Shown here piece by piece: positions 2,464-35,366 of a stretch of DNA of 64,000 nt. The stretch is taken from NCBI GenBank assembly GCA_938041325.1, contig CALIAG010000184.1:1-64000 (forward strand). The letters are read 5' to 3'. The notes under the pieces were generated by a model. The model had not been told where the DNA came from, made no database searches, and saw only the letters and a program-made list of their open reading frames with translations. A program made the translations under genes and the position numbers. How positions within the stretch are numbered: position 1 is the first letter of the stretch; every line of letters starts with the position of its first letter. The stretch comes from an uncultured Saprospiraceae bacterium. GTDB taxonomy: Bacteria > Bacteroidota > Bacteroidia > Chitinophagales > Saprospiraceae.

Positions 2464-5400
2464 TTAAAAGCGAAGGTTAAGTTTTCCATACCAGAATGCT
2501 CCTCGGATGCCGAATTGCTGGACACGACGGCTATATACGAAGATGCCATTTCCTACATTGGCAGAGTGGGTATGTTTATCTGGGTAAGTGTTGAATATGT
2601 TGTTGCCTCCTAATTTAAACGAGACATTATTATTGAGGTGGTATTGAAAGGACAGATCACAAATTGTCTTTGCGTCGAAGGTTTGATCTCTTGTTTCTTT
2701 ATTCCCAGTAAATTCATTGACAACCCAATTCTCCGGATTTCCGTCTTCGGGATGCTTGTAAATTACATTTCCGAAATGAGTCAAAGTAATTCCTGCGTCC
2801 CATTTTTTATTTTGGTAATAAGCGCCGAGTATTATTTTTTGGTTCGGTTGTGCAGTTTCAATTCTTGCGATCTCTTCCCTATTGAATAAAATATCTTTAA
2901 AGTCTGCTAATAACTCAGGTGCTTTTATCAATGGTTCTCCAGATGCCTCTTTTATTACTAAGGTTTCTGTGAAATTGGCAGCAGCACGTAGCTTAAGCGT
3001 TGAGTTTTGAAAGTTTATATGATAACTCATTCCAAGATCTATACCTTCTGTTTTTGTATCTATTGCATTGGTGAAAAATTGTGCATTATCAACTCCGATA
3101 GGATCAAGGATTTCTGCAAATCGTTGGTGAGTGCTTGCACCAAATTTACCTGTTATCACTATTCGATCCTCAATAAAAATGCGGTAATAATCCAAGGTAA
3201 ATGTAAAATTATTTAAAGGTTTTGTGGCAAGGCCAAAGCTGAGGTTTTTTGAACGTTCTGGTTTTAGATTGTCAAAACCAAATAGCCTTGTTGCGATATT
3301 TTCATTATTAAAATGTGCCACTTCTTTTCCTATTTGTTCAGTTCCTGTGGTTTCGAATTGTGTAGCGAGGCTGCTAAAATATACTTGATGTAGAGAAGGC
3401 GCTCTAAAACCAGTATTGTAAGATCCACGTAAAGTAACCTGGTCAATTACTTTCAGGCGACCATTTATTTTAAAATCAAAAGTGCTCCCGAAGTCTGAAT
3501 AAAATTCATATCGTGTGGCGGCACTTATTCGCAATGGTTCAAAAAGGTCCGCTTCAATGGAGCTATAAATTCCCATGTTGTATCGGTATTGGTGCACTTC
3601 ATTCTCTCTGGTAAATCCAGGAAACATTTGAATACCACTTTCTTTTAAAGTACCATCTGCCAAGGTATCTCCACCGTTGATCCAAGACGCTTCTTCGCCA
3701 GCATGTTGCTGAAATTTTTCAATCCGAAATTCAGACCCAAATCCTATATTGATTGGAATGTCACCATCGAAGTGTTTTTTGACATCGAGGTTTGTTACAT
3801 TTTGATTGTAACTGAATGCTCCCGCTCTAGCACGCGTAGGTGAAGCAAATCCAAGTGAAGCATTATTCGAATTTTTTACTGTAAAACCAAAGGTGTTTTC
3901 CCCAAAGGTATTGCTGAAATCGACTTGCCAAGGTTGGTTTCGCGTTCGCACTCCAATGCTAAAGGATTTGTCAAAAATATCAGAATGAAGTTGTGGTGAA
4001 AATCCATAAGGAGAAATTCCAGCTTGTCGGGACTCCTGATATGGAAAGCGATAAAAGCCTGAAGATTCCCCTTGTCTATAACTTGCTCCACCAAAGAAAT
4101 AGGTAACCAAATTATCGTTTAAAGGAAACTCTGCATTGACCATCAAACTAGTATTGATTAAAGAAGCTGCACCAACGTTTATTACTTTATTTTCTTTAAA
4201 GTTATTTTGATCAAAAAATAGAGTGAGTGAGTCTTGGTTATTGTCTCTTTGATCACCAAAAATAGGTCCTGTATAATCACCTGAGCGATTGAAGGAATTT
4301 CTTTTTGTAAAATCTAAAGTAAAATTAATCCAGCCTCCATTATTACCTATTTTGTTTCCAGAATTCGCACTAACTTTTGTCATCAAACCATCTCCTTCCT
4401 GCGTAAGGCCAACTTGTGAATTGATGTCTAGGAAGTTGGTGTTTTCTTTTAAAACGATATTTATCACTCCAGCGATTGCATCAGAGCCGTAATAAGAAGC
4501 TGCACCATCTCTTAAAACCTCGATCCTCTTTATGCTTGCAGTAGGAATTGCGTTAAGGTCTGTAGGTACAGTACCTCTTCCAACAGTACCGTTGATATTA
4601 ACCAAAGAGCTTGGGTGTCGGCGTTTGCCGTTGATTAGTACCAGTAATTGATCTGGGCCCAATCCTCTCAGAGAAGCCGGATCCATGTGGTCTGTGCCAT
4701 CTGCAATATTCTGGGTTGTACTATGGAAACTTGGTGCGGAATATTGTAGTAAATCAGAGAGGCCTGAATGCGTCGTAGAGGCAAGGTGTTCGTTATTAAA
4801 AACATCTACAGGATCTGTTTTATCCAGTAATGCAATTTCTTCAAAGCGAGAACCGACAATAACAACTTCATCTAAGCTCGAATAATCCACCAGCTTGAAA
4901 TCCATTTCGATGGATTCTTGTGGTTTTACAAATACTTTTTGGACCAATGTTTTATAGCCTACATAACTGATTTCCAAGATGTGGTTTCCAGGAGGAATTG
5001 CTAATTGGTATTCCCCGTTAAGGTTTGAGATTCTTCCAATATTTTTCTTGGCAACTTTAATGGTAGCCCCGACTAAAGGTTGGTTGTTTTTTTCGTGAAT
5101 GGTCCCTGAAACGATCCCTGTTTTTCGAGAGCGGATGATTACGAAGGTTGATTCAGTTACTTTGACATATTCGAGGTTGGTTTTTGCCAAGGCTTTTTTT
5201 AGACTATGCTCTGCACCTTTAAAAGTCTTTATCTTTAAAGGATTAATATCAATACCGTCGATTAAGCCAGTTTCATAGAGGAAATGGACATCAAACTCTT
5301 GTTCTATATCTGTAAGGAAAATTTTTAAAGTTTTAGGACTAGGCTCAGGATTGGATGATTCTGAAAAGGCAGAAGAATTTAGCATGCTCTGGCTAAACGC

Positions 5401-5466
5401 AGAGTAAGGGAAGTGGAAAAGAATAATCCAAAATAGGATTTTAATTACTGGCTTAACGGAGTTCAA
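2464..5466 (-). CDS. TonB-dependent receptor with STN and carboxypeptidase-like domains (FecA-type transducer)
   Basis: A 1000-residue outer-membrane receptor. Residues 1-25 are a signal peptide ending SAFSQ. An STN secretin/TonB short N-terminal domain spans about 43-110, the signalling module that contacts a FecR anti-sigma factor. A CarboxypepD_reg-like domain follows (about 117-195), then a TonB-box-like segment (LDEVVIVGSR, about 197-206), a plug (about 215-340, with DGAASYYGSDAIAGVINI) and a 22-strand-type beta barrel ending in aromatic GKLNLRF. It lies 47 bp downstream of the fecR-like gene on the same strand, the usual FecI-FecR-FecA order. No SusD lipoprotein gene is adjacent, so an import substrate cannot be guessed from context; siderophore, vitamin or peptide uptake are all possible. 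Confidence 0.92.
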   Translation of the reverse strand: MNSVKPVIKILFWIILFHFPYSAFSQSMLNSSAFSESSNPEPSPKTLKIFLTDIEQEFDVHFLYETGLIDGIDINPLKIKTFKGAEHSLKKALAKTNLEYVKVTESTFVIIRSRKTGIVSGTIHEKNNQPLVGATIKVAKKNIGRISNLNGEYQLAIPPGNHILEISYVGYKTLVQKVFVKPQESIEMDFKLVDYSSLDEVVIVGSRFEEIALLDKTDPVDVFNNEHLASTTHSGLSDLLQYSAPSFHSTTQNIADGTDHMDPASLRGLGPDQLLVLINGKRRHPSSLVNINGTVGRGTVPTDLNAIPTASIKRIEVLRDGAASYYGSDAIAGVINIVLKENTNFLDINSQVGLTQEGDGLMTKVSANSGNKIGNNGGWINFTLDFTKRNSFNRSGDYTGPIFGDQRDNNQDSLTLFFDQNNFKENKVINVGAASLINTSLMVNAEFPLNDNLVTYFFGGASYRQGESSGFYRFPYQESRQAGISPYGFSPQLHSDIFDKSFSIGVRTRNQPWQVDFSNTFGENTFGFTVKNSNNASLGFASPTRARAGAFSYNQNVTNLDVKKHFDGDIPINIGFGSEFRIEKFQQHAGEEASWINGGDTLADGTLKESGIQMFPGFTRENEVHQYRYNMGIYSSIEADLFEPLRISAATRYEFYSDFGSTFDFKINGRLKVIDQVTLRGSYNTGFRAPSLHQVYFSSLATQFETTGTEQIGKEVAHFNNENIATRLFGFDNLKPERSKNLSFGLATKPLNNFTFTLDYYRIFIEDRIVITGKFGASTHQRFAEILDPIGVDNAQFFTNAIDTKTEGIDLGMSYHINFQNSTLKLRAAANFTETLVIKEASGEPLIKAPELLADFKDILFNREEIARIETAQPNQKIILGAYYQNKKWDAGITLTHFGNVIYKHPEDGNPENWVVNEFTGNKETRDQTFDAKTICDLSFQYHLNNNVSFKLGGNNIFNTYPDKHTHSANVGNGIFVYSRRVQQFGIRGAFWYGKLNLRF

Positions 5467-5513
5467 AATGTTTTTTATAACTATCCTTGATTATAAATCA
5501 TTTTGGGTTTTGA

Positions 5514-6521
5514 TCATTTAACTCTTAACTCCAGGGTATTCTCTCTTTTTTCTAAAAAAGCTATTTCCTTGTCTGAAATAATAGCATTTAAGGCTTTAAT
5601 TAATGCATCGTTGGGTGCGGCACCACTGATAGAGACTGTGTCTAAAATAGTAGAATCGATTCCCTTCATTATTACATTGTAATCAAAACTGTTTTCAAGT
5701 ATTTCAATTACCTGGCGTAAAGGAGTATTATCAAAAACCAGAACATCTTTTTTCCAAGACGTAAAAATGTCTGTATTAATGTTTTGTGTTTTCGTGATTT
5801 TGTGTGTTTCAATAGCGACCATGTCTCCAGGCTTCATTGTTGTTTCAGCGTTTGGAGAATCTCCTATCTTTGTAACGCTTACTTTTCCTTCTTCCAAAAT
5901 CACAAAAGGCTTAATTTCTTGATCTGAAACTTGGAACTTTGTTCCTAAGACTTCAACATCAAAATCCGATGTATGTACGATAAACTGAGAAGTTCCTTTT
6001 AAGGGTTGAGAGGTAATATCAAAGAAAGCCTCTCCTTCCAGCCAAACCTCACGAATATCGTTGTTTTTCCAATTCTCTTGAAATTTAAGAGAACTAGATC
6101 CATTTAATACGACTTGAGATCCATCGCTTAGAGTTATACTTTCCTTTTCTGAACTATTAGTAAAAACTACTTTTGGTAAGTTATTTATATAAATATAACC
6201 AGCCACAACTACAATTCCTAATAAAACTGCAGCAGCATATTTATAAACGAACCTAAATAATGGCTTTTGTCTTCTTTCACCTATTTCTCCATGAATATTG
6301 CTCAAGAGAGAGGCAACATCTTTTTGGTCTAGCGTGTCTTTTTTGAAATTTAAGGATTGGATTAAAGTTTTGGCATTTTTAAACTCTTCTTTTCTATGAG
6401 GATTGTTCAAAACCCAAGATTCCCAAATTGATTTACTGGCTTCCGTTGGGTTTTTAACCCATGAAATAAACGACTCATTTTCAACAAGACAATCTTTGTC
6501 CTTATTATACTTTTCATCCAT
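5514..6521 (-). CDS. FecR-family anti-sigma / sigma-regulator
   Basis: A 335-residue single-pass inner-membrane protein. The N-terminal 85 residues are cytoplasmic and helical, with the W-rich pattern (SIWESWVLNNPHR) seen in Bacteroidota FecR proteins. A transmembrane helix covers about 90-111. The periplasmic FecR domain follows at about 130-230 and a DUF4974-type C-terminal domain at about 260-335, ending in LELRVK. FecR proteins hold an ECF sigma factor and receive the signal from the STN domain of the neighbouring receptor. The receptor gene is directly downstream; the sigma gene is 781 bp upstream, an unusually large separation. Confidence 0.9.
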   Translation of the reverse strand: MDEKYNKDKDCLVENESFISWVKNPTEASKSIWESWVLNNPHRKEEFKNAKTLIQSLNFKKDTLDQKDVASLLSNIHGEIGERRQKPLFRFVYKYAAAVLLGIVVVAGYIYINNLPKVVFTNSSEKESITLSDGSQVVLNGSSSLKFQENWKNNDIREVWLEGEAFFDITSQPLKGTSQFIVHTSDFDVEVLGTKFQVSDQEIKPFVILEEGKVSVTKIGDSPNAETTMKPGDMVAIETHKITKTQNINTDIFTSWKKDVLVFDNTPLRQVIEILENSFDYNVIMKGIDSTILDTVSISGAAPNDALIKALNAIISDKEIAFLEKRENTLELRVK

Positions 6522-7302
6522 TGTAATTAGGATATTTGTTTAGGTCTTATGCTAATAAAAAGTTTACTTAGAAAAATGATTCTAAGATATTGTCGTTTGT
6601 TTTGGAATTTTGTAAAGTTAGTTAAAATGCTGAAAATTTGGAATTTGTAAAGAGGAGGAAAGGAAAGGTTCCTTCCCCCACTCTTTCTCTGTCCCAAATT
6701 ATTCTTGATTGATTTACAAGCGTTCACCAAAATGAATTGGTAGGATGTAAATTTATAAGCTTGCCTTTTAGAATTGAGCCTAAAAGACGGAGTTTTGCTT
6801 TTTTGTAATGCAAATTTGGTTTTTTGGCATTACGTCAATTGAGGTCGTATTTTTAATAAAATGTAGCATCTTTTTAATAACCCAAACGCCAACTCCTAAA
6901 TATTAAAGTTTACTTTTTAATCTTTTTTATAAAAGGCATATTGCTGAATAAAGATGAACTTCCCCATAAATTTCACCTTAAAAACAAAATTTTTACTAAA
7001 AGAACAGTAAGTAAACCCATTTGATACAAGGAAATTGACGTTTCGTATGGATTATCATTTTTTTGATAAAGTAGTTTAACAATAGGATTCTTTAATCCCG
7101 TGTTAGTTTATTTGAGATCAAGACCCAAATTGTGTTTTCTTTTTTTAAGATAGATTCTTGAAGAGGTAATTAGAGAAGGCTGAATGGGTATAAAAACAGC
7201 GCTTAGCTATTTACTTCATGATAAAGAGTAAATAGGGCTTAATTTCTACCCAAAAAAAATCAACAATTTTTTAAAATACCCTAAAAAGGGTAGAAAAGTA
7301 GG
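6522..7302. other. 781-bp non-coding gap between fecI-like and fecR-like genes
   Basis: No reading frame here looks like a gene: the only frame of any length (minus strand, 6527-6730) has low-complexity composition and no recognisable domain. The stretch contains an inverted repeat GTAATGC (6805-6811) / GCATTAC (6827-6833) with a 15-nt loop, and a short hairpin next to the sigma stop codon. It probably holds the promoter of the fecR/fecA pair, but I could not find a convincing TAnnTTTG box on the minus strand. Confidence 0.4.
7277..7292 (-). terminator. Short hairpin after the ECF sigma gene
   Basis: TACCCT (7277-7282) pairs with AGGGTA (7287-7292) around a 4-nt loop, 11 bp past the sigma stop codon; on the minus strand TTTTAAAAAATT follows. 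A six-pair stem is weak, so termination is only possible. If real, it separates the sigma gene from fecR transcriptionally. Confidence 0.35.
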
Positions 7303-7878
7303 TTAATTGGTCTCTTGGATCTCCTTTCTGAGTCTCTTAATCCCTGTCGAGACTAATTTGTAAACTCCGTTGACATTTAGACCCATTATTTCGCTTATTT
7401 CTTCGTAGCTCATATCTTCAAAATATTTCAAGAATATAGCCTCTTTTTGCCTTTTAGAAAGCGATTTAAAAGCAAGGTCAATCTTATTTTTATTCTCTTT
7501 TAATGTGTTTTCTTGAAAGAAGGGTTCATCAGTAGATAACAAATTTGCATTTTGAAGATCAACTAATTCTAATGGTTGAGATTTTTGTCTACGCCCTAAC
7601 TTATTAGCTAGGCTTCTTTTTAAGGATAGGAAAAGATAATTCTTGACGGATTTTTCAATGGAGAGGCGAGATTTAGAGTTCCATAACGTTACAAAAAGTT
7701 CTTGGATACACTCTTTAGTTAGCTCTTGATCGTTGGAGATTTTCATCCCATAATTAAATATACTTTGGATATAAAAATGGTAAAGCTCATCAAAAGCATT
7801 TCGATTTCCATCCCGAATCTTGGACCATAAGGCTAGATCATAATTTTTACGCGCTTTAAAATCCATTCCAAGCATCAA
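7303..7878 (-). CDS. ECF sigma factor (FecI-like, RNA polymerase sigma-70 family)
   Basis: A 191-residue sigma factor. Region 2 is at about 25-90 (AFDELYHFYIQ, then ELFVTLWNS), and region 4 helix-turn-helix is at about 130-185 (LSKRQKEAIFLKYFEDMSYEEI). There is no extra domain, as in group IV/ECF factors. Another in-frame ATG at 7866 (MDFKARK) could be the true start. Together with the FecR-like and TonB receptor genes downstream it forms a three-component cell-surface signalling system: ligand binding at the receptor is relayed through FecR to release the sigma factor. A candidate Bacteroidota promoter lies 64 bp upstream. Confidence 0.92.
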   Translation of the reverse strand: MMLGMDFKARKNYDLALWSKIRDGNRNAFDELYHFYIQSIFNYGMKISNDQELTKECIQELFVTLWNSKSRLSIEKSVKNYLFLSLKRSLANKLGRRQKSQPLELVDLQNANLLSTDEPFFQENTLKENKNKIDLAFKSLSKRQKEAIFLKYFEDMSYEEISEIMGLNVNGVYKLVSTGIKRLRKEIQETN

Positions 7879-11562: not shown

Positions 11563-12054
11563 ATGTTTAAAAAAAAGAATATAAAATATATTTCATTCGA
11601 TGAAGCTTTATCAAAGCTTCAGAAATATTGCGTTTATCAGGACAGGTGTCATAAAGAAGTACGGTCGAAGTTATTGGATTTAGGAATCTATGGAGATGAT
11701 TTAGAAAAAATCATTGTAGAATTAATTCAAGATAATTTTTTGAATGAAGTTCGTTTTGCTCAATCTTATGCACGAGGAAAATTCCGAATTAAAAGATGGG
11801 GAAAAATGAGGATAAAGCGGGAAATGAAAATGAAAGGATTATCCGATTACTGTATAAAAAAAGGACTGGCAGAAATTGATGAGGAGGATTATGAAAAAAC
11901 CTTGGACGAACTTCTAACTAAAAAACGGAATTTAATAAGAGAGAAAAATGAATATCTAAAAAATAAAAAACTCGCCTCATTCGTCTATCAGAAAGGATAT
12001 GAACAACATATGATTTGGGATAGAATTAAGATCCTTTTCCCTATAAAAAGCTAA
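11563..12054 (+). CDS. recX: Regulatory protein RecX
   Basis: A 163-residue basic, all-helical protein with RecX three-helix repeats: residues 10-60 (ALSKLQKYCVYQDRCHKEVRSKL), 60-110 (FLNEVRFAQSYARGKFRIKRWG) and a more divergent third. RecX binds RecA filaments and limits recombinase activity. The length agrees with the family (about 150-160). Unlike in many bacteria, no recA gene is adjacent. An LKxxxY-type first repeat and the FA.SYARGK motif make the call secure. Confidence 0.9.
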   Translation: MFKKKNIKYISFDEALSKLQKYCVYQDRCHKEVRSKLLDLGIYGDDLEKIIVELIQDNFLNEVRFAQSYARGKFRIKRWGKMRIKREMKMKGLSDYCIKKGLAEIDEEDYEKTLDELLTKKRNLIREKNEYLKNKKLASFVYQKGYEQHMIWDRIKILFPIKS

Positions 12055-12167
12055 ACAAAGAAAAGTAGTGTTTTTTACAAAAATGACATCAACTTAATTT
12101 TGCCATTGCAAAAGCATTAAAAAATACTTATTTTTAAATAACTCATATCACAGAATTTTATTTTTCT

Positions 12168-12204
12168 AATCAGAAAGCTGACTTTTAGTATTTATTGGGA
12201 TTAT
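12168..12204 (+). promoter_or_regulatory. Composite upstream element, copy 1 (peptide gene)
   Basis: AATCAGAAAGCTGAC (12168-12182), 15 nt, then GGATTAT (12198-12204). The first box contains inverted arms TCAG/CTGA. The only other copy found lies before the LytTR gene at 14104-14140, with 14/15 identity, the same 15-nt spacing and 6/7 identity in the second box. TACCTTTG (12204-12211) overlaps the end and fits the TAnnTTTG -7 box. The element ends 58 bp before the peptide ATG. Function is inferred from conservation within the window. Confidence 0.5.
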
Positions 12205-12262
12205 ACCTTTGTTTAAAAAGGTGTATTTTAATAAAGCATTTTCTCACTAAATCATTTTAGTT

Positions 12263-12472
12263 ATGGCAAAAAAAATACAACTCAGTGAATTAAAGGTGAA
12301 AAGTTTTATAACCACCTTAAGTAAGGATGAACAGAATTCGGCCAAAGGAGGAAATAAAATTTCCGCCGGAGGATCTTTTAGTTTCAATTTTGTGAGAGGA
12401 GGTTCTTTTACAGTTCATAAGACGCAAGGTTCTCCAGATGTAGCAGATATTAACAGCCTGCTATTCGAATAG
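12263..12472 (+). CDS. Double-glycine leader peptide, pinensin-like leader without Cys
   Basis: A 69-residue peptide. Residues 3-30 have the leader form known from Bacteroidota ribosomal natural-product precursors such as pinensins: K-K-I-Q-L-S-E-L-K-V-K-S-F-I-T-T-L, an acidic patch KDEQ, then AKGG (Gly29-Gly30), a double-glycine site for a C39 peptidase/ABC exporter. The 39-residue core is rich in Gly, Ser, Phe and Thr (SAGGSFSF, RGGSFTV), so it has Ser/Thr to dehydrate but no Cys, and lanthionine rings cannot form. No LanB/LanC-type enzyme, exporter or peptidase gene is in the neighbourhood. It is convergent with the helical-repeat gene (11-bp gap) and shares an upstream element with the LytTR gene. 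Confidence 0.72.
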   Translation: MAKKIQLSELKVKSFITTLSKDEQNSAKGGNKISAGGSFSFNFVRGGSFTVHKTQGSPDVADINSLLFE

Positions 12473-12483
12473 GACCAAGTAAA

Positions 12484-14022
12484 TTATTTAGTATAATTAC
12501 TTTTTCTTCTTACAACCTCAGCAAACGACTCATTTTCGATTTTACTTTCTAACCAGGATATAAAATCGAAGTATTGGAACATTACTTTTTCTGAGGGAAT
12601 ATGTGTTAGCTTTTCAAATTCATCTTTTAAATTTGCAAACGCGTGCATGAGTTCCCTCAGAGAATGTATTTTATTCGATTCCTTTATAAATCCTAACACC
12701 TTCTTTTCAAATTCAAACATTCGATTTCTCTTCCGCAAGAAACGGTAAGTAGAACGGAATAGATATTCAAGCAACATCGTGTTGCCCATTTCATAATGAA
12801 TGATCAAGTTTAAAATTCGCGCAAGACTTTGTAAATCTTGTCGCTCGACTCGTCTTGGTAAATTCAACCACTCATTGAGGTATTCTAATGCTTTTGGATA
12901 ATCTCCTATCCCAAAATGAATATAGAAATATTGAAAATAGAACCGTCCACTTTCGAATACTTCACTGTCGAACTTTTCTTGTTCTTTCAAATGCTGTTTC
13001 AAGGCAAGTTCTCCTTCTTTAAAATCGCCAGTAAAGATGCACAGTGAGAACTTATTGGTATAATACTCATTGTAAACCCGCAACTCGTCATCTAAGGTTT
13101 TAGGTTTGATTACCAGGAACTTAGGCAGGCATTCCGCCACCTCTTCATAATATTCCAGAAGACCACAACTCGCCGTATAGTTGGTAAGAGCAGAAATGTA
13201 ATCGGCAATATCTTCTCTTAAAAAATGCGCTTGAGATTCCATTAACCTCATCAAGCGCTTACTCATTATGTGAAACTTTTCGTAATTGATAATGGAGTAA
13301 TAAAATAAGCTGTAAATCCTAAAATAGAATACCCGTGCTTTATGCGATTTCGCATTTCTTAAATCAGTCAACAACTTGTTTTCCATAATCAAATTCAAAT
13401 TAGCCACCTTCTCTTCACTCCTGAGTAAGGCGTCCTTTCTGATTCCAATCATGACGCGGTAGAATAAATTTTGGTATGCGGATAAATTACCTCTTTGTTC
13501 TAAACATTCATTTTCTTCATTGTTTATTCGATCCAACTCTTTGTCCAAGAAAACGATATCCGATTGCGCATAGGCGATTTGTTTTTCCCACTTCAAAACC
13601 TCTAGAATATGAATGAATGATTCATATTTATAAGCCACCTTCTTTGCTTTTACAAGCAACTCTTTACATTCTGAGTAATGAGATCTTTTGTACAATACGC
13701 GGACGCTATGAAGCATTCCTTTGAGCTTGTAATCAACAGAAGACTTTTCATCATAGCCCTGCAGGCTTTTTAGAATTAATTCGTAGAGGTAAGCTTTTAA
13801 TTCAGAATACTTACGACTTTGAATGGGTTCATCTTTATAAATAATCGCTTTTAAAGCCTCTTCATCATTCGCTTCTTGTTCATCTATACTATCGAAAAGC
13901 AAAGCGTATTTACTGGTCTTTTCATTTTTGTTTTCACGAATAAATAGTTTGAAATAGCGCTTTTCTGAGCCGGAAAGCGATTTTATGAGATTGAAGAGTT
14001 TTAATGATGGAGTTTTAGGCAT
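12484..14022 (-). CDS. Helical-repeat (TPR-like) protein of unknown function
   Basis: I do not recognise a named family. The 512-residue product is soluble, almost wholly helical, and rich in Lys, Glu, Leu and Tyr. Weak tetratricopeptide-like helix pairs recur: about 108-140 (RSHYSECKELLVKAKKVAYKYE), 340-365 (TGDFKEGELALKQHL) and 385-405 (GDYPKALEYLNEWL). The N terminus (LIKSLSGSEKRYFKLF) could form a compact helical bundle. No signal peptide or membrane segment is seen. The gene is convergent with the leader-peptide gene and divergent from the LytTR gene. By analogy with TPR peptide receptors (Rap, NprR, PlcR), a role in sensing a peptide is conceivable but is only inference. Confidence 0.75.
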   Translation of the reverse strand: MPKTPSLKLFNLIKSLSGSEKRYFKLFIRENKNEKTSKYALLFDSIDEQEANDEEALKAIIYKDEPIQSRKYSELKAYLYELILKSLQGYDEKSSVDYKLKGMLHSVRVLYKRSHYSECKELLVKAKKVAYKYESFIHILEVLKWEKQIAYAQSDIVFLDKELDRINNEENECLEQRGNLSAYQNLFYRVMIGIRKDALLRSEEKVANLNLIMENKLLTDLRNAKSHKARVFYFRIYSLFYYSIINYEKFHIMSKRLMRLMESQAHFLREDIADYISALTNYTASCGLLEYYEEVAECLPKFLVIKPKTLDDELRVYNEYYTNKFSLCIFTGDFKEGELALKQHLKEQEKFDSEVFESGRFYFQYFYIHFGIGDYPKALEYLNEWLNLPRRVERQDLQSLARILNLIIHYEMGNTMLLEYLFRSTYRFLRKRNRMFEFEKKVLGFIKESNKIHSLRELMHAFANLKDEFEKLTHIPSEKVMFQYFDFISWLESKIENESFAEVVRRKSNYTK

Positions 14023-14103
14023 AAGCTTGGGATTCAGTGAGGTCGGGACCTAATAATAAGAAAAAAGCATAGAAGAGACAAGCCTTATTAGATATGTTTT
14101 TGA

Positions 14104-14140
14104 AATCAGAAAACTGACATATGAATCGAAGATGGATTGT
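14104..14140 (+). promoter_or_regulatory. Composite upstream element, copy 2 (LytTR gene)
   Basis: AATCAGAAAACTGAC (14104-14118), 15 nt, then GGATTGT (14134-14140). It matches the element before the leader-peptide gene at 14/15 and 6/7 positions with identical internal spacing. It ends 63 bp before the LytTR ATG, against 58 bp in the peptide gene. It lies in the 181-bp space shared with the divergent helical-repeat gene. Confidence 0.5.
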
Positions 14141-14203
14141 TATTGCTTTTTTTGATAGCTAATATTACAGAAGAAATTGATTCGTAAATTAAAACTTAGA
14201 ACC

Positions 14204-14638
14204 ATGAGAGCTATTAAAAACATTCAATTAGAAGGTAATGTCGCCCGCATACCACTACGTTTAAAGGAGTCCGCTAGCTTCAATGCCCGCCCTTCAGGTA
14301 AATTCAGAAAAATTGCCTTGCCTACAATGGAAGGGATGAGTTTTGAAAAAATTCACAATATCATCTATCTCGAAGCAAAAGGAAATTATACCAATATTCA
14401 CTTTGTTGGTGGTAGAAAGACTTTGGTTTGCAAAACCTTATTGGAAATGGAATCAATGCTGGCAGATAATATTCAATTTGTTAGGATCCACAGATCTTAC
14501 ACCATCAACCTGAACTGTCTTCAGAAATATATTAAAGGCAAATCGGGTTATGTGATTATGGAAAGCGGAGAGAACATCAATATTTCGCTTGGTAAAAAAC
14601 AAGATTTTTTGAATCGTTTGGATTTATACTTCGCATAG
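14204..14638 (+). CDS. Stand-alone LytTR-domain DNA-binding regulator
   Basis: The ATG at 14204 gives 144 residues; a TTG 27 bp upstream is in frame but less likely. The LytTR domain covers about residues 45-144 (IIYLEAKGNYTNIHF, VRIHRSYTINL, YVIMESGENINISL), closely resembling the C-terminal half of the response regulator at 30661-31401. There is no receiver domain: the N-terminal 40 residues are short and basic, so activity is probably set by expression level or a partner rather than phosphorylation. LytTR proteins bind paired short repeats in promoters. A shared element before this gene and the leader-peptide gene makes autoregulation plus control of the peptide plausible. Confidence 0.85.
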   Translation: MRAIKNIQLEGNVARIPLRLKESASFNARPSGKFRKIALPTMEGMSFEKIHNIIYLEAKGNYTNIHFVGGRKTLVCKTLLEMESMLADNIQFVRIHRSYTINLNCLQKYIKGKSGYVIMESGENINISLGKKQDFLNRLDLYFA

Positions 14639-14778: not shown

Positions 14779-16380
14779 TTATAAAATTGAAACATCAATA
14801 AATTCTTGCTGCTCGGGATAGTCCGTCGTATAATGCAAGCCCCTGCTTTCGTGCCTCATAGAAGCAGACCGTGTTATGAGATAGGCGATGGTAATTAAAT
14901 TTCTTAATTCACAAATTTGAGGAGAGACATTCGTTGAGTTGTACAAACTTTCCGTTTCATGATGCAGTAAACCTAAACGATCCATGGCCCGTTTTAATCT
15001 TACATCTGACCGCACAATTCCTACATAGCTACTCATAATCTCTTTCAGCTCTTTCCAACTTTGAGTAAGCAATACCATTTCTTTGGGTTCTAAAGTTCCT
15101 TTGATATTCCAATCTGGAATGTTCTTTTGATAATTTATATTTGATATTTCCTTTCCAACATCTTTGTAGATACGATGAGCGAAAACCATTGCTTCCAACA
15201 AAGAATTGGAGGCCAAACGATTGGCTCCATGCAAACCTGTACAAGCACATTCACCACAAGCATACAGGTTTTGAATCGAAGTTCTCCCTTCTGCATCGAT
15301 CCGAATTCCCCCACACATATAATGGCAAGCAGGAACCACCGGAATCAAATCTTTCATAGGATCAATTCCAAGACTTTTGCACTTGTTGTAAATCGTCGGA
15401 AAGTGAGCGATAAAGCCTTCCTCATCCAAATGCCTACAATCCAAACAAACATAATCAGCACCTCTTTTTTTAATTTCGTTGTCAATAGCTCTCGCAACAA
15501 TATCTCTGGGGGCTAGTGAGCCTCGCTCATCATATAGGTGCATGAATTCTTCTCCATCTTGAGATTTTAAAATGCCTCCAAAACCACGAACCGCTTCAGA
15601 AATCAAAAAGTCAGGGTTTTCTCCTGCGGGATTGTAAAGAGCCGTTGGATGAAATTGAACAAATTCCATATTCTCTAACCTTCCTTTAGCACGGTAAACC
15701 ATCGCGATTCCATCTCCAGTCGCGATCACAGGGTTTGTTGTATTGCGGTAAACTTGCCCAGCCCCACCGGTGGCGACCACCGTTATTTTAGAAATGATCG
15801 TATCGATGGATTTAGTTTTTTTATTAAAAACATATGCTCCAAAACATTTGACATCAGGAGTGACTTTTGTAACCATATAACCCAGATGATGTTGGGTTAT
15901 TAAGTCAAGAGCAAAGTAATGTTCCAAGACTTGAATATTTTGGAAAGTTTTAACTTTATCGACGAGCGTTCTCTGAATTTCCCAACCTGTTAAGTCTTTG
16001 TAGTGCAATATCCGATCTTCTGAATGTCCGCCTTCCCGCCCTAAATCATACTCGTTCTTTTGGCCTTTGTCAAACCTTGCTCCCCATTCAATGATTTCCT
16101 TAACGCGCTCTGGTCCTTCTTCAATTACAAATTTTACAACTTCTTCATCACATAACCCATCACCTGCATCTAGGGTGTCTTCAACATGTTTGGTAAATGA
16201 ATCTTTCTGAAAATCCCAAACAGCGGCTACCCCACCTTGTGCATATGCGGTATTGCTTTCTGATTCATTCGTCTTTGTAAGAATGGTGATAGTGAGGTCC
16301 GGCCGATCTTCCGCCATTTTAATTGCAAAGGTGAGTCCTGCGATCCCAGAACCAATCACTAAAATATCTGAGTTTATCAT
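14779..16380 (-). CDS. nadB: L-aspartate oxidase
   Basis: A 533-residue FAD enzyme that oxidises L-aspartate to iminoaspartate, the first step of de novo NAD synthesis. The dinucleotide-binding motif GSGIAGL starts at residue 9; the conserved active-site block GREGGHSEDRILH is at about 118-130, and FHPTALYNP and HYMCGGIRID at about 240 and 355. The C-terminal helical domain is present (LKRAMDRLGLLHHE). Length is typical of NadB (530-540). The partners nadA and nadC are not in the window. Fumarate reductase is the paralogue, but the overall pattern and length favour NadB. Confidence 0.95.
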   Translation of the reverse strand: MINSDILVIGSGIAGLTFAIKMAEDRPDLTITILTKTNESESNTAYAQGGVAAVWDFQKDSFTKHVEDTLDAGDGLCDEEVVKFVIEEGPERVKEIIEWGARFDKGQKNEYDLGREGGHSEDRILHYKDLTGWEIQRTLVDKVKTFQNIQVLEHYFALDLITQHHLGYMVTKVTPDVKCFGAYVFNKKTKSIDTIISKITVVATGGAGQVYRNTTNPVIATGDGIAMVYRAKGRLENMEFVQFHPTALYNPAGENPDFLISEAVRGFGGILKSQDGEEFMHLYDERGSLAPRDIVARAIDNEIKKRGADYVCLDCRHLDEEGFIAHFPTIYNKCKSLGIDPMKDLIPVVPACHYMCGGIRIDAEGRTSIQNLYACGECACTGLHGANRLASNSLLEAMVFAHRIYKDVGKEISNINYQKNIPDWNIKGTLEPKEMVLLTQSWKELKEIMSSYVGIVRSDVRLKRAMDRLGLLHHETESLYNSTNVSPQICELRNLITIAYLITRSASMRHESRGLHYTTDYPEQQEFIDVSIL

Positions 16381-30660: not shown

Positions 30661-31401
30661 TTAGTTTGCTAAAATTTTAAGCAAACTTTCCCTTTTTCTC
30701 AAGGAAACTTCTATTAATTTACCATCCGTCATCTCCACCATTCCTTGCTTTCCTTTTATAAACCTGCGCACAAAATTCAAATTTATAAGATGTGATTTAT
30801 GTGCTCTGAAAAAATCGTCCATAGGGAGGACTTCCTCGTAGTGTTTTAACGTTTTGGTGATTAGAAAGGAAGAATTATCAGCTAAAAAAACATAAGTATA
30901 GTTTCCGTGAGCTTCGCATCTGATTATCTCTTTAAACTTTACAAAAGTAAAGCCATCGGTTGTCGCGAGCGCAATTTTATTCATTTGCTCACCAGAGAAA
31001 GGTTCTTTAAGTATTTTTGAGTCTTCTGATCCTTGTCCCTTATTTATTTTCTTTCTTACTTTTTCAACTGCATTGACCAATTCATCAATCTCAATGGGCT
31101 TGAGCAAATATCCAGTTGCATGGATTTGAAATGCCTTTAAAGCGTATTCGTCATATGCTGTTGTGAAAATCACTTCAAAAGGAATGTCTTCACCGTAGTG
31201 TTCCACCAACACAAAACCACTTTTTACAGGCATTCTGATATCCAGAAAAACCAAATCAGGCTTGATGGAATCAATGAGCTCTATAGCTTCATTTACTGAA
31301 GCAGCCATACCGACAATATCAAGATCATTGCAGTATTCCTTGCAAAGTTGCTCCAGTAGAAGCCTACTTTTAGACTCATCATCTACAATTATGACTCTCA
31401 T
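30661..31401 (-). CDS. LytTR-family response regulator
   Basis: A 246-residue two-domain regulator. The receiver domain (1-120) has acidic pocket D8-D9 and phospho-acceptor D54 in LVFLDIRMPVKSG, with the conserved Lys in LLKPIE at about 101-106. The LytTR DNA-binding domain (about 145-246) has IIRCEAHGNYTYVFL and FRAHKSHLINL. It is the C-terminal relative of the stand-alone LytTR protein at 14204-14638. Its own histidine kinase of the LytS/His_kinase type is not in the window; the kinase at 34209-35366 is two genes upstream but of a different (NtrB-like) type. Confidence 0.93.
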   Translation of the reverse strand: MRVIIVDDESKSRLLLEQLCKEYCNDLDIVGMAASVNEAIELIDSIKPDLVFLDIRMPVKSGFVLVEHYGEDIPFEVIFTTAYDEYALKAFQIHATGYLLKPIEIDELVNAVEKVRKKINKGQGSEDSKILKEPFSGEQMNKIALATTDGFTFVKFKEIIRCEAHGNYTYVFLADNSSFLITKTLKHYEEVLPMDDFFRAHKSHLINLNFVRRFIKGKQGMVEMTDGKLIEVSLRKRESLLKILAN

Positions 31402-34208: not shown

Positions 34209-35366
34209 TTATTGTCCTTTGGGGAGTTTAATCGTAAAAGTAGTACCCTCCACTTCTGATGACTTTTTTACAAAAATCCTGCCAGAGTGGTAGTCTTCTA
34301 TGATTCTTTTGGCTAGTGAAAGACCTAATCCCCATCCTCTTTTTTTAGTAGAATATCCTGGTTGAAAAACAGTTTTAAATTTGGAAGCAGGGATACCAGA
34401 TCCTGTGTCCGATATTTCAATATTTACATAGTTGGCTTCATCCGTTACAACGGCTTTAATTTTACCGGTACTACCCATGGCATCTAGTGCATTACGGAGT
34501 AAGTTTTCGACTACCCATGCGAAAAGAGGGGGATTTATATTAACCATCCTTTCCACCGAATTTGGATCAGGGAATTCGAAAGCCACTTTTCTAGGCGCTC
34601 TACGTTGCATGTAGACTCTGCATTCTTCTAATTCATGCATAATATTGACCGCTTCTAAATCTGGTGATGAACCTATTTTTGAAAATCGATCTGCAATAAG
34701 GTCTAATCGGTCAACATCATTTCCCAATTCTTTAACGACCTCATGAATATTAGGATCATCAGTCATTATCTTCAAGTGTTCTATCCAAGCGACTATTGCT
34801 GAAATAGGTGTTCCTAACTGATGCGCAGTTTCTTTTGCCATCCCTACCCAAACCCGATTTTGTTCTGATCGGCGTGCGGAACTAAATAAGAAATACCCAA
34901 TGGTCATAAATGTGCCAAAAAGTAAAACCTGCAATAAAGGAAAATAAGTAAGCAGGGTAAGTAGTTGCGATTTTTTATAATAAATCGTGTAATTGTCAGG
35001 AATGATAATAGGTTCGGGACCACTAATTTTGATCTTATCTAGTTCCTTTTCAAGGAATTCCAGGTCCTCATCTTTGTCACCAAAATTTTTTGCGTAATCA
35101 ATTTTACCAGCGGTATTGACTACAATCGCTGGAATATCAGTATTGGATTTTATTATTTCTAATTGAAAGGTAAGGTCAGCATTATCACCGGCATCACCTG
35201 TATTTAAGGATTCCCAAGCTTGCGCAAGGAGTCTTGCTTTATCTCTTTCTCCATCGGCCAAGCGTTGAGCGAGATAGTTGGTGTAAAACATAGAGATGGT
35301 AAGAATAATAACACCTGCAATGGCGAGATAAATTTTCCATCTTGATTTCTGTTCGTAAATATCCAT
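34209..35366 (-). CDS. Membrane sensor histidine kinase
   Basis: A 385-residue kinase. Membrane helices at about 12-30 and 132-153 bracket a ~100-residue periplasmic sensor (ADGERDKARLL...). The dimerisation/phospho-acceptor helix is MAKETAHQLGTPISAIVAW (His at about 186), an NtrB-like HisKA variant; HATPase_c follows with N box LLRNALDAMG, G1 DTGSGIP, F box PGYSTKKRGWGLGLSLA. It precedes the TonB receptor in the same transcription unit. No cognate receiver protein is directly adjacent; the LytTR regulator two genes on is a possible but atypical partner. Confidence 0.9.
   Translation of the reverse strand: MDIYEQKSRWKIYLAIAGVIILTISMFYTNYLAQRLADGERDKARLLAQAWESLNTGDAGDNADLTFQLEIIKSNTDIPAIVVNTAGKIDYAKNFGDKDEDLEFLEKELDKIKISGPEPIIIPDNYTIYYKKSQLLTLLTYFPLLQVLLFGTFMTIGYFLFSSARRSEQNRVWVGMAKETAHQLGTPISAIVAWIEHLKIMTDDPNIHEVVKELGNDVDRLDLIADRFSKIGSSPDLEAVNIMHELEECRVYMQRRAPRKVAFEFPDPNSVERMVNINPPLFAWVVENLLRNALDAMGSTGKIKAVVTDEANYVNIEISDTGSGIPASKFKTVFQPGYSTKKRGWGLGLSLAKRIIEDYHSGRIFVKKSSEVEGTTFTIKLPKGQ

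Follow-up and report, generated by a model that had tools for sequence, protein, structure and literature searches.

In many Saprospiraceae, a single conserved DNA signal appears to let a helical-repeat protein switch on a peptide gene and genes for the cell surface

The published criteria for RRNPP systems comprise a propeptide of 10–100 amino acids that is exported by Sec (by PptAB in the case of SHP and PrgQ), a receptor of 250–500 amino acids with TPR repeats whose gene is a direct neighbour of the propeptide gene, and a mature peptide that binds this receptor and alters its activity (PMC10075063). In the 64,000-nucleotide stretch of DNA from an uncultured Saprospiraceae bacterium that we analyzed as a whole (hereafter the window), the propeptide has 69 amino acids (62–93 among the relatives listed) and thus falls within this length range, and its gene is a direct neighbour of that of a TPR-like protein, from which it is separated by 11 nt in convergent orientation; 73 of 78 loci show the same neighbourhood. 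However, judged by its sequence the leader is of the GG type (NF038180) and not one for Sec/PptAB export, and the putative receptor, with 512 amino acids, lies marginally outside the published size range. Since the module departs from two of the published criteria (PMC10075063), we have not filed it under RRNPP.

The original prediction had described a GG-leader peptide gene, a 512-residue TPR-like protein, a receiver-less LytTR regulator and a shared upstream element, and all four proved to be real when open reading frames, profile searches and a genome scan were consulted. The peptide gene (positions 12263–12472, plus strand) follows recX (11563–12054, plus strand). Its leader, MAKKIQLSELKVKSFITTLSKDEQNSAKGG (12263–12352, plus strand), scored 37.7 bits with the pinensin leader model NF038180 (cut-off 24; E 1.4e-9) and hence qualifies as a leader of this type, while the predicted mature region, recognized in an alignment of 72 peptides, occupies positions 12353–12472 of the same strand. 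The gene for the 512-residue helical-repeat protein (12484–14022, minus strand) is followed on the plus strand by the LytTR gene (14204–14638), which encodes 144 amino acids when read from the ATG at 14204; the TTG at 14177 is a less likely start. The LytTR domain is recognized by PF04397 (E 5.5e-15, residues 56–148), and no receiver domain was matched in this protein of 153 amino acids or less. nadB (14779–16380, minus strand), identified by reading its sequence, comes next, and no histidine kinase gene is present between recX and nadB. Across loci, the flanks of the peptide locus consist of such housekeeping genes or of variable ones. Elsewhere in the window, positions 30661–31401 and 34209–35366 encode a LytTR-domain response regulator of full length together with, upstream, a likely histidine kinase; the LytTR part of this response regulator is distantly related (41%) to the receiver-less protein. 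A FecI/FecR-like set, judged as such by position and named from reading alone, occupies 2464–7878 on the minus strand and comprises a sigma-70-like protein (7303–7878), a 335-residue anti-sigma-like protein (5514–6521) and a likely TonB-dependent receptor of 1000 amino acids (2464–5466).

A close orthologue of the 512-residue protein (43–60% identity) was present in 16 of 100 related genomes. The best LytTR matches in these 100 genomes are divergent to, and adjoin, the gene for the orthologue, and a GG-leader peptide lies directly downstream in convergent orientation in 15 of the 16 orthologue loci fetched. When 84,980 species genomes were scanned, at least 80 named loci emerged, mostly from Saprospiraceae. 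Among the 78 with enough sequence, the peptide adjoins the helical gene in 73 (71 found by script and two, L212 and L256, by eye) and was not found in the remaining five, while 49 have a LytTR gene divergent to the helical one and about one third lack it. The expectation that the helical family would recur with both the peptide and the LytTR gene was therefore borne out in the orthologous clade. It did not extend to the wider family, which has up to 15 matches per genome and, in the loci that we read, mostly lacks such a peptide; the trio is hence a property of one clade. Within that clade, these comparisons support the view that the peptide, helical and LytTR genes belong together.

The 512-residue protein is matched over residues 8–503 by NF058569 (BT2802, ribose utilisation) with 157.1 bits (E 7.5e-46); because this is below the curated cut-off of 550 bits, we regard it as a homologue and not as a member of that family. 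No Pfam model, including those for TPR, matches the protein, and TPR profile matches are weak. Its AlphaFold2 model is all helical (pLDDT 88.9). When residues 130–498 (12529–13635, minus strand) were compared with known structures by VIA-align, RapI (Z 18.5, rmsd 4.9, 299 residues), NprR (Z 17.4) and phage Rap proteins came out on top, with Rpn6 and LGN at about Z 16; Foldseek alone ranked LGN first. The comparison with Rap and NprR that the original prediction had drawn holds at the level of the predicted fold.

The 17-mer TCAGAAARCTGAC has exact matches at only two positions of the 6.3 Mb genome, 12170 and 14106, which are 1.9 kb apart. The first copy, operator A (TCAGAAAGCTGACTTTT, 12170–12186, plus strand), lies upstream of the peptide gene and the second, operator B (TCAGAAAACTGACATAT, 14106–14122, plus strand), between the helical and LytTR genes. 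In both promoters a −7-like box begins 37 nt past the 17-mer: TATTTTAA (12224–12231, plus strand) for the peptide gene and TAATATTA (14160–14167, plus strand) for the LytTR gene, the latter being found as the same box in several orthologous loci. An alternative −7 box of the peptide promoter at TACCTTTG was dropped for TATTTTAA in view of the fixed spacing. Across loci, the element takes the form TCAGAAACCTGACTTWT. A matrix built from 33 sites (consensus TCAGAAACCTGACTTAT), with which typical sites score 18–27 against a control 99% threshold of 6.0 bits, detected the element before 67 of 71 peptide genes and before every one of the 78 testable helical genes, whether or not a LytTR gene was there; genomes that had also trained the matrix account for about a dozen of the 80 named loci. 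Furthermore, 58 of 65 peptide promoters have a TAnnTT box whose distance from the element is exactly 36/37 nt; the mean for other offsets is 1.2. Conservation of the shared element upstream of both peptide and helical genes in related genomes argues against its being fortuitous, and together with the fixed spacing it excludes a chance repeat. A scan of the window's genome for the element with one mismatch gave no enrichment above the control. At locus L091 of genome G009, which has no LytTR gene, the 250 nt that precede the helical gene contain three element-like copies.

The element is not confined to the locus. In its 16-mer form it occurs outside the locus at 16 sites in the 17 genomes that carry the orthologue and at six sites in the 83 genomes that do not, that is, in 10 of 17 versus 6 of 83 genomes (p 6e-6); a reversed-pattern control gave nine matches in the 100 genomes, and none of the six sites in genomes without the orthologue has a box at the correct position. 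The sites in genomes with the orthologue mostly precede genes that are orthologous across many genera and code for a TonB-dependent receptor, a GWxTD protein and cargo of the T9SS type. The receptor (1200 amino acids, CarboxypepD_reg domain, about 48–78% identity across genera) has a gene in all genomes tested. An operator precedes it in 12 of the 17 genomes with the helical gene (it was not found in the other five) and in none of eight without (Fisher p 0.0016). The presence of the peptide and that of the helical gene are statistically inseparable. The window's genome contains two copies of the receptor gene, in each of which an operator precedes the start by about 348 nt; these sites, which differ in their first bases (TTAGAAACC, TTTGAAACC), were located via the receptor gene.

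Some paralogues of the helical protein show an equivalent arrangement with a different sequence. In one clade (L096–L099), seen in four genomes and without an adjacent LytTR gene, the neighbours of the helical gene encode very large secreted proteins of the T9SS type with SprB repeats; three of the four loci have such genes on each side. Its element, GGACTYCTACGTTTT, is present at the helical gene itself and at a second SprB gene 3–4 kb off. Of nine matches to GGACTYCTACGTTTT in 100 genomes, seven fall within the four SprB-linked loci and all seven have a box at 36/37 nt, while the two stray matches have none. Compared in register, the elements of the two clades are identical at 9 of 15 bases. 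For further paralogues, matches to the generic layout are enriched in the divergent 400-nt region (this region makes up 3.6% of the sequence and received 3 of 10 matches; p 0.005); one such paralogue in the window's own genome (L093, G000:C293) has the site AGAAACCTACGTTTT near position 1445, 81 nt upstream, and this site faces a divergent small VOC/glyoxalase-like gene. In the commonest paralogous clade (MPKQKTDDL...; L273–L287), there is no clear sign of the generic layout (2 matches versus 0.26 in shuffles). In most genomes a leuA-like gene is the divergent neighbour of the gene of this clade, whose upstream region has a different conserved stretch, AAATTAG...ATTAATACAAG. BT2802-like relatives from the window's family and order (L271, L272) are divergent to ribokinase and ribose-type transporter genes; L272 has three consecutive nucleoside-hydrolase-like genes as well.

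The genomes themselves reveal the genes, their linkage, the operators and their spacing, the distant sites and the dependence on the presence of a helical orthologue. We consider it probable that the 512-residue protein is a local transcription regulator that acts at a clade-specific operator and thereby controls its own gene, the exported peptide, the LytTR gene and distant surface genes; direct binding to DNA, and activation as the outcome, are what we infer. Such a regulator, made up of an N-terminal helical domain and a Rap/NprR-like TPR domain, would occupy an operator that precedes the −33 region by about 10 nt and the −7 box by 36/37 nt, and would activate the gene of the GG-leader peptide, that of LytTR in loci that have one, and the distant genes for the TonB-dependent receptor, the GWxTD protein and the T9SS cargo. 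The helical gene, whose start follows such an operator at about 80 nt, would probably be autoregulated, and the LytTR protein would serve as an accessory, second-tier output regulator. GG-type leaders are of the kind used by C39-peptidase ABC exporters, and such exporters are encoded in all 17 genomes with the orthologue; the peptide would accordingly be expected to leave the cell via an exporter of this type that is not linked to the locus and cuts it at the GG site. Collectively, this amounts to an apparent gene-control circuit, perhaps one of peptide signalling, for which we found no description in the literature within the reach of our search (most subscription papers lay outside it).

What the regulator senses is a separate matter. 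The peptide, or a similar small ligand, may be read by the TPR domain of the 512-residue protein, a suggestion that we put forward tentatively. Nearly even chances attach to an alternative that bears on this ligand step alone and is compatible with the regulator and its operator, namely that the peptide is merely an exported product of the regulon (a bacteriocin, a matrix or a surface peptide) and that the helical protein responds to a sugar, the state of the cell or something else. The genes linked to the SprB-associated paralogues encode large secreted proteins, i.e., outputs, the distant genes likewise encode surface proteins, and the ribose genes next to the BT2802-like relatives hint at a sugar cue. 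Three observations speak against a mere product. The TPR part most closely resembles peptide receptors; the peptide gene adjoins that of the regulator in nearly all loci, which the distant genes of the regulon do not; and the core of the peptide keeps a short motif, W-x-x-[VI]-[DE]-[IVT]-R, across genera (W in 66 and R in 60 of the 72 aligned peptides). In the window the corresponding stretch reads F-T-V-H-K-T-Q, an unusual variant with F for W. Carried one step further, sensing of the peptide by the regulator would make the module a Gram-negative counterpart of RRNPP, in which the GG peptide goes out via C39, comes back via the co-regulated TonB-dependent receptor and is read by the cytoplasmic TPR regulator, each member of the family having its own operator in a common layout; this extended scheme is speculative, and we hold it to be rather unlikely.

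An unlinked transcription or sigma factor might bind the element instead, with the helical protein acting on that factor in the manner of Rap. Many Rap proteins act on other regulators, e.g., response regulators, and Rap proteins are the closest matches to the TPR part. The N-terminal 114 residues (13681–14022, minus strand; separate AlphaFold2 model, pLDDT 83.9), which we regard as the candidate DNA-binding domain, gave no confident DNA-binding fold and nothing above noise in the fold search, the match to the C-terminal part of SigW being weak (Z 5.0, rmsd 2.4, 61 residues). Nonetheless, we judge this alternative to be unlikely: two helical clades have different elements in one layout, each concentrated where its clade occurs, so that an unlinked partner would need to co-diverge with each clade, and the element is present at the helical gene itself in every testable locus.

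The original prediction had pointed to the LytTR protein as the binder of the shared element, which would leave the helical protein to modulate LytTR or to be simply co-regulated. Binding sites of LytTR proteins lie upstream of −35 regions, and in 49 of 78 loci a LytTR gene with the element at its promoter is divergent to the helical gene. However, loci without a LytTR gene keep the element at 29 of 29 helical genes and at 25 of 26 peptide genes, so that this assignment is probably wrong; in the LytTR-less genomes G001, G009, G027 and G029 it is found at distant genes as well, and the SprB-linked clade, with no adjacent LytTR gene, has an equivalent element of the same layout. In the LytTR-less loci the box in the LytTR direction persists in just 1 of 27 cases although the element is retained, and it is hence more likely that the element at this position acts on the helical gene, at a distance of about 80 nt. 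Taken together, binding by LytTR is a decidedly improbable explanation.

Lanthionines require Cys. A pinensin-type lanthipeptide locus, or that of another modified natural product, which had been entertained as well and to which the NF038180 match of the leader would lend itself, can be dismissed as highly improbable, since the core has no Cys in the window and nearly none in the 72 aligned relatives, PMC7268733 discarding precursors without Cys, and since the open reading frames listed for the loci include no modifying enzyme, dehydratase/cyclase included, beside the peptide gene and between flanks that are housekeeping or variable.

A local regulator with a clade-specific operator would have consequences beyond this locus. 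The operator layout (a CCTnnnTTTT-like frame whose sequence is specific to the clade, at a fixed 36/37 nt from the −7 box) allows targets to be predicted from nothing but sequence and opens the function of the helical family, which is large in Bacteroidota, to direct testing. Should the linked peptide be the ligand, this would be, to our knowledge, the first RRNPP-like peptide signalling outside Gram-positives.

Compared with described systems, the locus shares with pinensin-type class I lanthipeptide precursors the leader sequence and the GG site, but differs from them in a core without Cys and in that no biosynthetic enzymes were seen in the locus. As with the LytTR outputs AgrA and ComE, a LytTR DNA-binding domain is encoded near a peptide gene; unlike these, it comes without a receiver domain and without a linked histidine kinase, and is missing in about one third of the loci. 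The 512-residue protein resembles the BT2802 family (NF058569) over its full length and in a gene that is divergent to its presumed targets, whereas the genes associated with it are those of a peptide and of a surface regulon instead of ribose genes. The likeness to RRNPP (Rap, NprR, PlcR, Rgg) consists in a small propeptide gene that adjoins the gene for a putative cytoplasmic regulator of TPR-like fold, in RapI and NprR as the closest structures, and in a common control element of the peptide and regulator genes. The module departs from RRNPP in its occurrence in Bacteroidota and not in Firmicutes, in the GG leader in place of Sec/PptAB export, in the 512-residue putative receptor with no recognized HTH, in the convergent order of the genes, and in a distant regulon that includes outer-membrane receptors.
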